A stretch of 64,000 nucleotides of DNA, taken from positions 226,818-290,817 of the forward strand of contig JACPUC010000007.1 in NCBI GenBank assembly GCA_016192455.1. The letters are read 5' to 3'. The notes beneath the pieces are model-generated. The model was not told where the DNA came from, ran no database searches, and saw nothing but the letters and a program-made list of their open reading frames with translations. Source of the stretch: Candidatus Tectimicrobiota bacterium. GTDB lineage: Bacteria; JACPUC01. Made by a program: the position numbers and the translations under genes. Below, piece by piece: positions 32,685 through 38,613 of this stretch; within the stretch, counting starts at the first letter, position 1, and each line of letters starts with the position of its first letter.

Positions 32685-34445
32685 TTAGCGTTGCCGCATG
32701 GTGGTGATCTTTTCCTGGATGGAGCTCGCCAGGCGCGTCAGCGACTCTTCTTCGCGGTCCTGCGCCTCGAACCCCACGCTCGCCTCGGCGAGGTCGCTGC
32801 CGAAATCGGCCCGCGGCCTCTCCCCCTTGGACTCATCGTGCCAGCGTTGCGCGGCCCCGTTCGGCTGCGTGAGTGATCCGCCGACCGCACCTCCGGGAGG
32901 TCCTGGCAAGCTGGCCAGCAGGGTGATCGACTGCGGCGTGACGCCAAGCACGAGGCGCTGCCCCTCAACCTCGACCACCGCCAGCGATTTCTTTGCGCCC
33001 AGGTAGTGCGTAGCGTGGACCTTGACGCTGCTCCCCTGACCGAGGAGGCCGCGCCCCTTCAGCCCGTACCGCCGCACCAGGTGCGCGCCCACCAGGAGCA
33101 TGCCGAGCAGGAGCGCCAACGCCGCCGCCATCTTCACGGACGAGGTGAGGAGGTCCGGGGTTTCCAAGAGTGCCGGGCCCGGCAGGTCTTTGCGGGCGGG
33201 GGACTGGCGCGGCGGCTCTCTCCGCTCGGTGGCGGCAGGCTCTTCGGCAGCCTCCTCGGCTGGCTTATTGGAGACCGCCGAGGACGCGGCATCGACCTGA
33301 CCATCCGGTTCGACAGGTGCGGCCGGGGGGGCGGGCGCGGCGGCTTCCGCTGCCGCTCCGCGCGGCGCCGCTGCGGCGCCTGCCTGGCGCGCAAGATCGC
33401 GGAGCTCCGGGATCGGTTGAATTCGCCCGCCGGCCACCTGCTCTTCAGCCGCGGAACCTGGCTTCTCCCTGCCACTCTGACGCGCCTTCCGCGCCGAGGG
33501 CCGCGGGGAGGCTCCTGCTCCCGCCGCGTCCCGTTTCCCCTCCGCGAGGGCGGCGCGCTGCTCCTCTGGAGCCGCCGCCGACGCGGCGCGGGAGGCTCCT
33601 CGCTTCCCTTGGTTGGCAGCTTTCGGCCCGTCGCTTGCGGCGCCGGCGGCGCGCACCTCAGGAGGCCGCAGGAGCGCCTCGATAAGCTGCTGCGGCGTGG
33701 GCCCCTGCCCGTCCGCCTCGGACCCCCCCGTCGCATCGCGCGGCTGCGGCTGCTCCTCTGTCTCCTGGGCGGCGCGCTCGTTCGCCGGCTGGGGGATCGT
33801 CTCCTCTTTCGCCGTCTCTCCTTCGGGAGGGCGCGGCGCGGCGGCCGGTCGCTCTCTTTCCGTCGTCGCCGGGGCCGGCGGGGAGCCCTTCTGGAGGCGG
33901 GGCGGCTTGATGGTTCTGGCCGTTTTCGTCTCCACGACCGGCGCCTCGGAGGAGGTCTCGGGCGCTAAGCGCCCCTGCGGCTGCGCGGGCGGCGCCGCGA
34001 CCCGCGGCAGCAGGATGGCCAGCCGCTGCTCACCCTCATCGACGCGGAGCGTCTGACGCCACGTCTCGGCGGGCTGAGCCAAAACCAGCCGCAGGCGGAC
34101 GTCGCGCGTGTTAAGCTGCAGCGCGGAAATCTGCCGAATCACCGAGCCCTCGCCACTCAGCATCTGGCGGGAAGGATGGATATAGGCCTGCGGAATATCG
34201 ACCTCGAGAGCGTTCGGCGTGAACCGCAGCCACTCCCGTTTGAAGCTGACGGGTCGCTTGAAGTGCAGGATGATCCCCTCTGTGCTTGCGTCGCTCTGCA
34301 CCTCGATGCGCTGCAGATAGTTGAGAACCGCGAGCGGTTGCGCAGGCGCGGGCGCGCTCCACGCCAGGAGGGTGAGCAGCGTCAGGAGCTGCGCCACCCT
34401 CCGCCCGCTGTCGCTCCGGGGAATGTATTGCACCTGCCGAGCCAT
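32685..34445 (-). CDS. fliO: AMIN domain - long linker - FliO fusion
   Basis: 586 residues, about five times usual FliO. A signal peptide (LLTLLTLLAWSAPAPAQP) leads to an AMIN-like beta domain at about 25-150 (RIEVQSDASTEGIILHFKRP, ISALQLNTRDVRLRLVLAQP), a type found in periplasmic, peptidoglycan-associated proteins. Then comes a roughly 270-residue Pro/Ala/Glu/Arg linker. A membrane segment near 432-455 (AAALALLLGMLLVGAHLV) and the cytoplasmic FliO domain follow (VKVHATHYLGAKKSLAVVEV, RLVLGVTPQSITLLASL). The position between fliN and fliP is exactly that of fliO. FliO helps FliP assemble; the AMIN part may tether the complex to the wall (inference). Confidence 0.9.
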   Translation of the reverse strand: MARQVQYIPRSDSGRRVAQLLTLLTLLAWSAPAPAQPLAVLNYLQRIEVQSDASTEGIILHFKRPVSFKREWLRFTPNALEVDIPQAYIHPSRQMLSGEGSVIRQISALQLNTRDVRLRLVLAQPAETWRQTLRVDEGEQRLAILLPRVAAPPAQPQGRLAPETSSEAPVVETKTARTIKPPRLQKGSPPAPATTERERPAAAPRPPEGETAKEETIPQPANERAAQETEEQPQPRDATGGSEADGQGPTPQQLIEALLRPPEVRAAGAASDGPKAANQGKRGASRAASAAAPEEQRAALAEGKRDAAGAGASPRPSARKARQSGREKPGSAAEEQVAGGRIQPIPELRDLARQAGAAAAPRGAAAEAAAPAPPAAPVEPDGQVDAASSAVSNKPAEEAAEEPAATERREPPRQSPARKDLPGPALLETPDLLTSSVKMAAALALLLGMLLVGAHLVRRYGLKGRGLLGQGSSVKVHATHYLGAKKSLAVVEVEGQRLVLGVTPQSITLLASLPGPPGGAVGGSLTQPNGAAQRWHDESKGERPRADFGSDLAEASVGFEAQDREEESLTRLASSIQEKITTMRQR

Positions 34446-34457
34446 CGTTGCACCACC

Positions 34458-34931
34458 CTAACGCAGTTGCTCAATGCGTTCCGTCGGGCTGATGATATCC
34501 GTCAAGCGGATGCCGAACTTCTCGTTCACCACCACCACTTCGCCTCGAGCCACGAGCTTGTGGTTGATGAGGACCTCCAGCGGCTCGCCGACGAGCTTCG
34601 TCAACTCGATGACTGATCCCGGGTCAAGCTGCAGGAGGTCGTTGATCAACATGCGGGTGCGTCCCAGCTCAACGGTCACCTGCAAGGGGATGTCGAGAAC
34701 GAACTCCAGGTTCGGCGGCACTCCCGCTCCGCTCTGCCCCCGTCGTCCCGGAGATGCCGCCGGCACTGGCGCGGTGAGTGGTCGCGGCGGCGCCTCCTCC
34801 TTGGTCCTGGTGGCCTCCCGGATCATCTCCCGCTGCTTCTGCAGGTCCTCCTGGGCGTCTTCCCAGGAGAAGCTATCGGCATCATCACCCCCAGGCTGGG
34901 CGGGGGGGCTCACATCGTCGCGATTCGCCAT
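34458..34931 (-). CDS. fliN: Flagellar switch protein FliN
   Basis: 157 residues. The N-terminal 70 are an acidic, then Pro-rich extension. The C-terminal SpoA domain is canonical: LEFVLDIPLQVTVELGRTRM, LLQLDPGSVIELTKLVGEPL, LINHKLVARGEVVVVNEKFG, IRLTDIISPTERIEQL. FliN forms the lower C-ring and docks export chaperone complexes. It lies 36 nt after fliM. Confidence 0.97.
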   Translation of the reverse strand: MANRDDVSPPAQPGGDDADSFSWEDAQEDLQKQREMIREATRTKEEAPPRPLTAPVPAASPGRRGQSGAGVPPNLEFVLDIPLQVTVELGRTRMLINDLLQLDPGSVIELTKLVGEPLEVLINHKLVARGEVVVVNEKFGIRLTDIISPTERIEQLR

Positions 34932-34967: not shown

Positions 34968-35957
34968 CTACGCCTGTTGGCAGTGCAGCCTTGTGGCGAC
35001 CTGCACCGCTTTGCTTCCCTTCAACGAGCCGGCATGGCCGAGGAATTTCCGCACGCCCTCCACGTTGACGACGAGCTTGGCGCCGGCATCCTGGGTCAGT
35101 TGAATCAGATCGCCGGCGGCCAGCGTCAGAAGCTCGCGCACCGAGATTTCCGCGCCGCCGAGTTCCACCGCGATCTCCACCTGGGTTCCCGCCACGTTCT
35201 CCGCAATGCGGCGGCGCCAGGTGTCATCCACCCCCTCTTCTTTCGTCTGGAAGCCGGTATTGAGCTTGTGGCGAATCGGCTCGAGCATGGAGTAGGGGAT
35301 GCAGATGGAGATGCGTCCCGCGCGTTGCATCTGCTCGATCTCCACCTCAAAGTGGGCCACCACCACAACCTCGGCGGGGGGGGCGATGGAGGCAAACTGC
35401 GGAATCGCTTCCTCGCGCTCGACGACCGTCCGCACCGGCAACATCACCTGCCAGGTCTTCTCGACATCCAGGAGAAGTTGCTTCACCACCTTGCGCATCA
35501 TGCGCAGCTCGATTCCCGTGTAGTCGCGCCCTTCGACGCGCGACTGGAACTGGCCGCGCCCGCCGAAAAACGCATCGATCATGTCGTAAACCAGGCGACT
35601 CTCCACGACGAGCATCGCCAAGCCATGCAGCGGCTCCATGCGGAAGATGTGCAGACTGGTGGGCAGGGGCAGAGACTTGACTAAGTCGCCAAGTTTCACG
35701 AAGGCGCTGGTAAGGAAGTTGACATCGACAGGCCGCTGCAGGCTGGTGGTGAGCGTGACGCGCATCCGGCGCCCCAGTTTTTCCTGGATCATGTCGAAGG
35801 AGGGCATCGGATCCCGTTTGACCTTCCCCTGCGACGTGAGGTCAAAGGGCACCACTTCACCGGCCGCCGGACCCGGATCGGTGCCGGTCTTGACCTCTCC
35901 CTCAACCACGCCCTTCAGGAGCGCATCCACCTCTGCCTGCGACAGGATCTGATTCAT
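34968..35957 (-). CDS. fliM: Flagellar switch protein FliM
   Basis: 329 residues, normal for FliM. The N-terminal CheY-binding motif is present (ILSQAEVDALLKGV). The central domain holds the GGxG-type loop in AFFGGRGQFQ. The C-terminal SpoA-like domain has LGGAEISVRELLTLAAGDLI and LVVNVEGVRKFLGHAGSLKG. FliM links FliG to FliN and receives CheY-P; a cheY gene is in the next transcript. Confidence 0.98.
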   Translation of the reverse strand: MNQILSQAEVDALLKGVVEGEVKTGTDPGPAAGEVVPFDLTSQGKVKRDPMPSFDMIQEKLGRRMRVTLTTSLQRPVDVNFLTSAFVKLGDLVKSLPLPTSLHIFRMEPLHGLAMLVVESRLVYDMIDAFFGGRGQFQSRVEGRDYTGIELRMMRKVVKQLLLDVEKTWQVMLPVRTVVEREEAIPQFASIAPPAEVVVVAHFEVEIEQMQRAGRISICIPYSMLEPIRHKLNTGFQTKEEGVDDTWRRRIAENVAGTQVEIAVELGGAEISVRELLTLAAGDLIQLTQDAGAKLVVNVEGVRKFLGHAGSLKGSKAVQVATRLHCQQA

Positions 35958-36021: not shown

Positions 36022-36804
36022 TCACTCCTGCCGGGGTCGCAGTTCAAGCCTCTTCGACTCACTCCTGCCCTCGTCTGGACGTGTGAGCACTACGTCGGCG
36101 CGCTCATTGCGCTCCCGCTCGGTTGACAACAGGCTCGACACGGCAGGCCGGCTACTGCCATAACTCCAGGCGCTGAAGCGGCTCGGGTCGAGCTTGCTGG
36201 AACGCTGGAGCAGGTGGAGCACGGTCATGGCCCGCGCCATGCCGAGCTCCCAGGCAGAGGCGTAGGCGCCGCGCGCCGCCAGCTTCTGGTCCGCGTGCCC
36301 CTCGATCAGCACCTTCACCTCAACCTCACGGATGATCCGGGCAAGCTCCATCAACTGCTGCCGGCTCTGCGGGAAGAGCTCCGCCGTGCCCTCCATGAAG
36401 CGTAAGGCGGGGTTGAAGCTCACCAGGTAGCGCCCGTCATCATCGCCGGCGAGGTTGAGGCGTTTCGAGAGGTAGCCGATGGCATCCTCCTCCTCCTCGT
36501 CACGCGCCTTGGCGAGGAGATTTTGCAGCAGCTCCTCGGTCACGGGAGCCCCCTCAAGATTGCCACCTTTGCGGGGGGCAATATCTTCCTGGAGGCGGAC
36601 CTCGCTTTTCGTCCCCTTCTCCAGCACCCCCAGGGCTTCGGGGAAGAAGCTGAACGCGACTTGAACGGACTTGTTGTCCATCGAGGACATCGAGAGAAGC
36701 ATCACGAAGAACGTCAGGAGCAACGTCAACAAGTCGGAGAACGTCACCATCCAGGCGTTCGGATCGAGACTTGCGCCTGCCGGCTCCTGGAGCTTGCGGG
36801 CCAT
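36022..36804 (-). CDS. motB: Stator protein MotB with ion-binding Asp
   Basis: 260 residues. The single membrane helix begins at about residue 18 (WMVTFSDLLTLLLTFFVMLL) with the ion-binding Asp at residue 24. The C-terminal OmpA-like domain is present but divergent: EGHADQ replaces EGHTD, and the usual NRRVE block reads RERNERADVVL. MotB anchors MotA to peptidoglycan and forms the ion path. It is the second of two MotB-type genes after motA; the other lacks the Asp. Confidence 0.93.
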   Translation of the reverse strand: MARKLQEPAGASLDPNAWMVTFSDLLTLLLTFFVMLLSMSSMDNKSVQVAFSFFPEALGVLEKGTKSEVRLQEDIAPRKGGNLEGAPVTEELLQNLLAKARDEEEEDAIGYLSKRLNLAGDDDGRYLVSFNPALRFMEGTAELFPQSRQQLMELARIIREVEVKVLIEGHADQKLAARGAYASAWELGMARAMTVLHLLQRSSKLDPSRFSAWSYGSSRPAVSSLLSTERERNERADVVLTRPDEGRSESKRLELRPRQE

Positions 36805-37024
36805 ACGCGCGCACTTTCTGTCGTGGTCCCCGCGGGGTGGGACCGGGAGTCTCTCCTAGAGGCGCCTCGCCTCCCGTCGTCGCATGCTGCGGGCGCCAGG
36901 TCGGTCCTAGGACTCCGCCACGGGGGTGCATCGCGCGATTTGCCGCCAGCCCCGCGCGCTCCACGGCTGCCGCCGCCAGAGGCTCCGCGCTGACCGCGGG
37001 GGAAGGAGGCCGCGCGCCACCCAT

Positions 37025-37813
37025 TCAGAACGTCGTCGAGAAGGTGAACCCCTTGAAATCGAAGAGGCGCTGCTTCACGTTCCGTTTGCGCAGCGGGCCG
37101 ACGAGCCTGATCTCGACGCGCCGATTCCGCACCCTGCCCTCTTCCACATCGTTGGTGTCAATCGGATGCTCCGCCCCGCGACCCACGGCCATGAGGCGCC
37201 GTGCCGCCACCCCCCGCCGCTCCAGGTAGCGCAGCACCTCCACGGCGCGCGCGCCCGACAGCTCCCAGCTCGTCGGGAACAGTCCCCCCTGGGGTGGAAC
37301 ATTGTCGGTATGCCCCTCAACGACGATGTTGTTCGTTGTCTGCAAGGCGAGGCCCGCCACCGCGTCGAGGTACGTATAAGCCTGGGGCTTCAAGGTGGCG
37401 CCGCCCGGCAGGAAGAGGAGACTGCTGCCGAGCGAGATCGCCACGTTCTCTTCGCGGGAGATGACCTCGTCCTCGCTCGTCGCCTCATCAGCGGGGTCGC
37501 CGGACCATGCCTTCACCTTCATGCCCAAACGACGGAACGTCTCGAGACTTGCCTTCAGGCCTTCATCCTCCGGGTTCAGGATCGGGGCCTGCGGGGGCAT
37601 CAGCGACTTGCCCGGCTCAAATTGCACCCCTCCCGGCAGAATGCCGAAGCTGCCCAGCAGCGAGCCGATCGCCAGGCGCTGCCGGTTATCGTCCTTCACC
37701 GAAATCGAGTTCAGGAGGATGAAGAACGCCAGCAGCAAGGTAGCCAACGCGGTCATCAGCACCACGAAGGAGCCCGCCTGCTGGGCCTCTTGCTTGGCTT
37801 TCCCGCGCGCCAT
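37025..37813 (-). CDS. MotB paralogue lacking the ion-binding Asp
   Basis: 262 residues. The membrane helix SFVVLMTALATLLLAFFILL aligns with that of the neighbouring MotB, but the Asp position is Ala22 (MTALATLLL against FSDLLTLLL), so it cannot carry ions the usual way. Its OmpA-like domain is canonical: IVVEGHTDNVPPQGG and VRNRRVEIRLVG. It lies directly downstream of motA with a GGGGGAG ribosome-binding site. It may pair with the Asp-bearing MotB in a mixed stator, supplying wall binding, or play a separate structural role. The Ala is read directly from the GCG codon. Confidence 0.9.
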   Translation of the reverse strand: MARGKAKQEAQQAGSFVVLMTALATLLLAFFILLNSISVKDDNRQRLAIGSLLGSFGILPGGVQFEPGKSLMPPQAPILNPEDEGLKASLETFRRLGMKVKAWSGDPADEATSEDEVISREENVAISLGSSLLFLPGGATLKPQAYTYLDAVAGLALQTTNNIVVEGHTDNVPPQGGLFPTSWELSGARAVEVLRYLERRGVAARRLMAVGRGAEHPIDTNDVEEGRVRNRRVEIRLVGPLRKRNVKQRLFDFKGFTFSTTF

Positions 37814-37851: not shown

Positions 37852-38613
37852 CTAGAAGGATGACTGCCGCAGCCGCGGCGACAGGAACGCATGCAGCTTC
37901 TGCTCGACGATGCGCGGGTTATCGCCGGCGGTGATCGAGAGGATGCCCTCGATCATCAGCTCCTTCTCGAGCTGCTCTTCGCTGGAGCGCGTGCGCAGCT
38001 TGCCGGCGATGGGCAAGAAGAAGACGTTGGCGAAGATGGCGCCGTAGAAGGTGGTGATCAGGGCGACCGCCATGGCGGGGCCGATCCTGCTCGGGTCATC
38101 GAGAGCTTGCAACATCTGCACCAGCCCCACGAGGGTGCCGATGAGGCCCATGGCCGGCGCGAAGGTGCCCAGCGTTTGAAACAGCTCCGCTCCCAGGCGG
38201 TGGCGGTTCTGCGAGAACTCCAGCTCGGTCTCGAGGATATCCTCGATCGCCTTGGGTTCCATCCCATCGATGACGAGCTGGAAGCCCTTCGCCAGGAAGC
38301 TGTCGGTAATTTCGTCCGCCACCCCTTGCAAGGCCAGGATGCCGTCCCGCCGCGCCACGGTCGAGAACTGCACAAACTTCGGGATCCACGCGTGCGGCGT
38401 CGTCGACTTGAAGAAAAACGCATGCCGCACCACCGCGAGGCTGCCGATCATCTCCTTCAAGGGGTAGTTGACGAGGCCCGTGCCCAGGGTGCCGCCGGCC
38501 ACGATCATCAGCGAGGGGATATCCCAGAAGGCCATCAGGCCACCGCCGCTCAGGATCGCGAAGAAGATGAGCCCGAATGCCGAGGCGATCCCCAGGAGAG
38601 TTGCAAGGTCCAC
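37852..38613 (-). CDS. motA: Stator protein MotA
   Basis: 253 residues from a GTG at 38613 with GAGGAG just upstream. Four membrane segments are visible: two near the N-terminus (GIASAFGLIFFAILSGGGLM, PSLMIVAGGTLGTGLVNYPL) and two after the cytosolic loop (GTFAPAMGLIGTLVGLVQML, MAVALITTFYGAIFANVFFL). The loop between has the charged DGILALQGVADEITDSF region that contacts FliG. It is the first gene after the sigma-54 element at 38723-38738, followed by two MotB-type genes. Proton or sodium use cannot be read with confidence. Confidence 0.96.
   Translation of the reverse strand: MDLATLLGIASAFGLIFFAILSGGGLMAFWDIPSLMIVAGGTLGTGLVNYPLKEMIGSLAVVRHAFFFKSTTPHAWIPKFVQFSTVARRDGILALQGVADEITDSFLAKGFQLVIDGMEPKAIEDILETELEFSQNRHRLGAELFQTLGTFAPAMGLIGTLVGLVQMLQALDDPSRIGPAMAVALITTFYGAIFANVFFLPIAGKLRTRSSEEQLEKELMIEGILSITAGDNPRIVEQKLHAFLSPRLRQSSF

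Follow-up and report, generated by a model that had tools for sequence, protein, structure and literature searches.

The window (the whole stretch of 64,000 nucleotides analysed here) carries on its minus strand a flagellar operon in which Pfam matches identify fliK, flgE, motA, motB', motB, fliM, fliN, fliO, fliP, fliQ, fliR, flhB, flhA and flhF/flhG-like genes. A motA gene is followed by two tandem genes of the MotB family, both with intact reading frames, and these in turn by fliM-fliN-fliO (Table 1). The upstream paralogue, here denoted MotB', lacks the ion-binding Asp, and the downstream one, denoted MotB, retains it. The nearest solved structures to MotA are those of C. sporogenes MotA (6YSF/8UCS) and PomA (8BRI) (phmmer against PDB, 5.6e-64). 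The two MotB genes are separated by a gap in which a scan for promoter- or terminator-like sites found none; in many relatives the two genes abut or overlap, with overlapping reading frames in several of them, vs. the 220-bp gap of the window.

Table 1. Genes and protein features of the stator locus, with the next genes downstream (positions are those of the window)
Feature	Position	Strand	Evidence
motA, 253 aa, PomA/MotC-type A subunit	37852..38613	-	PF01618, 109 bits; PRK08990 (PomA), 281 bits, below cut-off
MotB', 262 aa, Asp-less MotB paralogue	37025..37813	-	PF13677, 29.1 bits (cut-off 24); PF00691, 71.3 bits
MotB' transmembrane helix, residues 16-38 (16-FVVLMTALATLLLAFFILLNSIS-38)	37700..37768	-	Ala22 (37748-37750) at the Asp position; F30 and F31 invariant
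MotB' plug helix, residues 41-60 (..AIGSLLGSFGILP..), canonical motif retained	37634..37693	-	Predicted helix 42-55; plug score 24.3 vs. 19.5 for MotB
MotB' OmpA-like wall-binding domain, residues 116-238, with D170 and R189	37100..37468	-	Pfam; residue states; Foldseek to MotB/MotS/TssL wall-binding domains
motB'/motB gap, 220 bp, non-coding	36805..37024	-	Between the two ORFs
MotB, 260 aa, ion-binding D24 (36733-36735)	36022..36804	-	PF13677, 56 bits; PF00691, 52 bits
MotB ion-path helix, residues 18-40 (WMVTFSDLLTLLLTFFVMLLSMS)	36685..36753	-	W18, M19, F22, D24, T31, F32, F33, V34, M39 invariant in 19 paired MotBs
MotB plug region, residues 43-62, degenerate (DNKSVQVAFSFFPEALGVLE)	36619..36678	-	Plug profile scores
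MotB OmpA-like domain, residues 118-241; D172 and R191 kept, NER in place of NRR	36082..36453	-	Residue states
fliM, next downstream of motB	34968..35957	-	PF02154 and TIGR01397 above cut-off
fliN	34458..34931	-	TIGR02480 above cut-off

The first-pass annotation had placed Ala at the ion-binding position of MotB' and Asp at that of MotB, and both assignments were confirmed: the codon of Ala22 is GCG (CGC on the plus strand) and aligns with that of D24. Restoration of the Asp at another position of the MotB' helix is ruled out for the window protein, because residues 16-38 contain no acidic residue. MotB' has both domains that define a MotB (PF13677 and PF00691) but not the ion-binding Asp, and we therefore regard it as a MotB-like paralogue rather than an ion-conducting MotB. 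Its plug segment carries the GSLxGxxGxL motif, and its single-chain structure model predicts a plug helix at residues 42-55. The single-chain models of the two proteins, built from 11 and 8 sequences and with mean pLDDT values of 71 and 65, both contain a helix and an OmpA-like domain, with the wall-binding domains of MotB, MotS, PomB and TssL as the best Foldseek matches. The C-terminal tail of MotB' is aromatic and ends in Phe (VKQRLFDFKGFTFSTTF; 37025-37075, minus strand), a feature not seen in the other MotB' proteins.

The wall-binding domains of the two proteins were initially read as canonical in MotB' (EGHTDN and NRRVEI) and defective in MotB (EGHADQ and RNERADV). The motifs are present as described in both proteins, but the domain of MotB, although divergent, cannot be called defective because it retains D172 and R191, which we take to correspond to the diaminopimelate-binding pair D271/R286 of Acinetobacter OmpA. 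Judged by these residues, both window proteins retain the Asp and Arg of a putative wall-peptide-binding site, which argues against the proposal that one of them conducts ions and the other anchors the stator to the wall.

To follow this gene pair beyond the window, we searched 386 genomes with the window MotA and inspected the neighbourhoods of about 120 motA loci; since the loci were picked by similarity to the window MotA or MotB', their frequencies do not stand for all bacteria. A scan of genome contigs with MotB' yielded distant relatives only. In this first survey, 94 loci were called as having a single MotB, all with Asp; one of them (L104) was a pair on reading, with MotB' inside a longer ORF, and none of the ~93 single-MotB loci was Asp-less. 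Tandems of two Asp-plus MotBs were found at 8 loci, including L057 of genome G010, which has an arrangement like that of Aquifex. Pairs of one Asp-less and one Asp-plus MotB were found at 17 loci, 12 in the order A-B'-B (the window, L060, L073, L078, L079, L082, L083, L094, L104, L116, L117 and L124) and 5 in the order A-B-B' (L097, L098, L108, L125 and L172). An Asp-less copy was thus present in 17 of 25 tandem loci vs. 0 of ~93 single-MotB loci (Fisher p ~8e-15, for rows that are not phylogenetically independent). Searching six of the phyla concerned yielded 13 further pairs, all with the same split, so that motA accompanied by a tandem of an Asp-less and an Asp-plus MotB, whichever comes first, is found in 30 genomes from 19 families and at least 8 phyla (the six phyla searched do not overlap and do not include the window genome, and the remaining families f154, f196, f194 and f67 belong to at least one more phylum). 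At the Asp position, MotB' has A, S, T, C or N, and its partner always has D. The recurrence of the pattern excludes a chance origin, and the loss of Asp at the window locus is no local accident; a sequencing error at Ala22 was likewise rejected, because relatives carry S, T, A, C or N at this position.

An Asp-less MotB need not adjoin an Asp-plus one, since in Clostridium manihotivorum motA is followed by one MotB with Ser at the ion-binding position (L011, 5983-6690, plus strand), and a second MotB sought within 12.7 kb was not found.

Comparison of the paired proteins to a position profile of 93 single MotBs indicates which parts each copy has kept. The ion-path helix was scored without the Asp column, and the plug segment was taken as residues 40-62 of MotB', matched to residues 52-71 of the Salmonella plug by distance from the Asp (PMC7564593). 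The score of the ion-path helix was higher for MotB than for MotB' in 28 of 28 pairs (19/19 for A-B'-B and 9/9 for A-B-B'), with L172 about equal. Conversely, the plug score was higher for MotB' in 28 of 29 pairs (18/19 for A-B'-B, 9/9 for A-B-B' and 1/1 for a further pair), and the contrast is mild in the window (Table 1; single-MotB median, 29.5 bits). At the 8 Asp-plus tandems, the helix scores of the two copies were alike except for the very divergent L138, and there was no systematic plug split apart from L057 and L141. The ion-path residues of MotB given in Table 1 show no variation among 19 paired A-B'-B MotBs, whereas in 20 MotB' proteins the Asp is gone, as is most of the ion-path motif, while their FF pair is invariant (20/20). 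The mean pairwise identity of MotB' is 51% in the helix vs. 28% in the OmpA domain; conservation of the helix well above that of the wall-binding domain, together with the invariant FF pair, suggests packing against MotA rather than the role of a generic anchor.

For the OmpA domain, there was no score direction common to the A-B'-B and A-B-B' groups. The expectation that the state of the OmpA motifs co-varies with that of the Asp found no consistent direction across the pairs, and complementarity between Asp and wall-binding domain was rejected. By profile score, the split lies instead between the ion-path helix, which MotB has retained, and the plug helix, better preserved in MotB'. The wall-binding site is degraded in the Asp-less copy of L094 and L117; at L097, L098, L125 and L172, one or both copies have Cys where the Asp that binds the wall peptide would be expected (GHTC/GYTC), which may reflect a different wall ligand.

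In a MotB tree, the 12 MotB' proteins of A-B'-B loci form one clade (SH-aLRT 93), 4 of the 5 MotB' proteins of A-B-B' loci and their MotBs form two strongly supported clades near each other, and the two copies of L172 group together. The unconstrained tree, which requires three changes, suggests three origins, and the groups are unlike in gene order, but AU tests did not reject a single clade of all MotB' proteins (p = 0.49 with the helix and p = 0.126 without it) or a single clade of the pair-associated MotAs (p = 0.147). We therefore do not claim convergence or three independent origins. Because the rows are related, the pair counts are not independent, and may represent one to three independent events.

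The pair provides the only MotB_plug matches in 10 genomes that are 83-99% complete (G034, G179, G314, G315, G180, G272, G134, G237, G366 and G066), each with only one MotA passing the 1e-15 threshold. If these bacteria swim, the pair must therefore power the motor. Comparison of congeners G179 and G314 gave dN/dS values (Nei-Gojobori) of 0.063 for MotA, 0.26 for MotB' and 0.23 for MotB, and comparison of G134 and G417, for which dS is near saturation, gave 0.012, 0.069 and 0.058, respectively. Purifying selection on MotB' is about as strong as on MotB. Based on these values and the sole-stator genomes, we rejected the possibility that MotB' is a pseudogene or subject to drift.

The window genome itself is not among these ten. 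Its assembly (4.46 Mb, 88% complete), searched with PF13677 and PF01618, contains one more complete motA-motB on contig C23, whose MotB2 (WVTTYGDLMSVLLVFF; EGHTDE and NRRVEI) has a normal Asp helix and OmpA domain. The observation that both MotBs follow a single motA thus holds for the locus and not for the genome. A second complete motAB had been named as what would speak against the initial reading, and it is found in the window genome, where the Asp-less/Asp-plus pair may therefore be redundant, but not in the ten others.

The PomA/PomB, MotC/MotD and MotP/MotS stators have one B gene each, with Asp; the window MotA is nearest PomA, and the best NCBIfam model for MotB' is MotD, well below its cut-off. 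The closest arrangement is that of Aquifex aeolicus (motA/motB1/motB2), where one motA also precedes two tandem motB genes and the wall-binding parts differ strongly between the copies (PMC4525482). Across their N-terminal and membrane regions, the two Aquifex MotBs share 97% identity, and a chimera made from either one can power E. coli motors together with MotA (PMC4525482). Because these regions differ by one Gly/Ser change only, both keep the ion site; in the window, in contrast, one copy has lost the Asp as well as large parts of the ion path, so that the Aquifex pattern of Asp in both copies and near-identical helices does not apply. The AglR-AglQ-AglS gliding motor of Myxococcus xanthus likewise combines one MotA homologue with two different B-type proteins (PMC9389320, PMC3169522), and whether AglQ and AglS form a heterodimer or homodimers is named as an open question in a review (PMC9389320). 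Unlike the window proteins, both are ExbD/TolR proteins (PF02472) described with a conserved Asp (PMC9389320, PMC3169522); no PF02472 match is listed for MotB' or MotB, both of which match PF13677 and PF00691, and the pair is thus not of the AglRQS type.

With the canonical MotA5-MotB2 stator (6YSF, 8UCS, 6YKM), the window locus shares the A subunit family and the helix-plug-linker-OmpA layout of B. The canonical unit has two identical B chains, two Asp and two plugs, whereas the window encodes two unlike chains with one Asp. In the 5:2 stator, the two MotB chains alternate in ion binding, with ten 36-degree steps per turn (PMC9175137, PMC9389320). A search of open-access papers found no description of an Asp-less MotB paralogue partnering a MotB. 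In a recent family-wide study, B subunits were inferred from proximity to MotA (PMC12505986), and a term search of its text found no mention of Asp-less MotB partners. Tandem motB genes (Aquifex) and a MotA homologue with two B-type partners (AglRQS) are already known, each with Asp in both B proteins.

The recurring split suggests that such motors are driven by two unlike MotBs that together have only one ion-binding site. The first-pass annotation had put forward a mixed MotA-MotB-MotB' stator, and this composition, although not the accompanying conduct/anchor split, is supported by the recurrence, the sole-stator genomes, purifying selection and the reciprocal loss of features. We somewhat favour a central B dimer that is, at least mainly, a MotB-MotB' heterodimer within one MotA ring, for which the genes offer four indications: tandem placement in the flagellar operon, loss of the Asp in exactly one copy, reciprocal retention of ion path and plug, and purifying selection on both copies. 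In such a unit, a MotA pentamer would enclose one MotB, bearing the only ion-binding Asp, and one MotB', the helix of which would pack within the ring without binding an ion. The plug helix of MotB' would be the better-kept gate, keeping the unit closed as long as it has not docked at the rotor, and anchoring would proceed through the wall-binding domains of both chains. The two chains would then have degenerated in complementary ways, one keeping the ion path and the other the plug, while sharing one ring. Loss of the plug causes an ion leak that harms growth (PMC7564593, PMC9389320). The pattern of losses fits one shared complex, because a MotB homodimer would be without a normal plug and a MotB' homodimer would be unable to conduct. 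We infer heterodimerisation, a 5:1:1 stoichiometry, one conducting site and a plug acting in trans; one conducting site would in turn imply 5 rather than 10 ions per MotA turn. A more far-reaching and tentative proposal, which we hold to be possible rather than probable, is a stator class present in at least 8 phyla, and possibly evolved repeatedly, in which a conducting MotB with a weak plug and a non-conducting MotB' with a plug form an obligate heterodimer (5:1:1) with a single ion site, passing 5 ions per MotA turn in steps of 72 degrees. MotB mutants at the Asp site can be dominant-negative. A dimer with one Asp would need adaptation for this reason and because such mutations abolish the channel activity of model MotBs (PMC7564593).

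MotB' might instead build its own non-conducting MotA5-MotB'2 units, which would vie with active MotA5-MotB2 units for sites at the rotor and could serve as a brake, as a load adjuster or as a reserve. The retained packing residues of the helix, plug and wall-binding domain would allow such a complete but silent unit, and the lone motA-MotB'(Ser) operon of C. manihotivorum is consistent with it, but it leaves unexplained both the loss of the canonical plug motif in MotB of the same loci and the tandem placement in sole-stator genomes, and we consider it unlikely. No likelier is a structural role outside the MotA ring, in which MotB', anchored in the membrane and bound to the wall, would be an accessory protein that positions or stabilises stator units. 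The intact OmpA-like domain, the lost ion-path residues and the much changed N-terminal half of the helix would suit such a protein, but the helix is the most conserved part of MotB', with FF in 20 of 20, and the plug motif is retained, neither of which an accessory anchor needs. Both explanations account for the helix and plug data less well than the mixed ring.

Continued conduction by MotB' with the same MotA through other polar residues appears very improbable: Ser, Thr, Cys or Asn are common at the position, and some (not all) A-B-B' copies have an acidic residue five positions ahead of the Asp site, but Ala occupies the site in 4 of 20 A-B'-B copies and in several A-B-B' copies, most copies have also lost the W and T of the ion path, and the window helix contains no acidic residue. 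Least credible is a decaying duplicate made redundant by the complete motAB on C23, which is largely refuted by the intact gene, the purifying selection in relatives, the sole-stator genomes and the distribution over at least 8 phyla.

The 5:2 model assumes two equivalent B chains, and a natural stator with one Asp, if real, would test whether both sites are needed. A mixed stator would likewise offer a ready test of how many steps and ions make up one revolution and of whether a single plug can gate the unit. For annotation, an Asp-less MotB beside an Asp-plus MotB should be treated as a retained partner rather than an error.

Several loci show further variants. In genome G335, which has other stators, the reading frame of the Asp-plus partner at L082 (2859-3821, plus strand) is interrupted behind the helix by an in-frame TAA, which may be a read error or a true loss. 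L163 (2230-3160, plus strand; genome G008) encodes a reduced stator, in which motA precedes a short ORF of 111 aa and another of 145 aa; the latter has an Asp helix and is without a recognisable OmpA domain. L138 (2287-3737, plus strand; genome G135) is a very divergent Asp-plus tandem, the second copy of which keeps the Asp, has the LLAFFIVLNSL helix end typical of MotB' and possibly represents an intermediate state. In the window, FliO is unusually long (586 aa; 32685-34445, minus strand), with an Ala/Pro/Glu-rich low-complexity stretch preceding the FliO domain (residues 456-515). The sole FliL match of the genome (22047-22658, minus strand) is located far from the stator genes, at the other end of the flagellar cluster; several relatives have a FliL-like ORF between motB and fliM.
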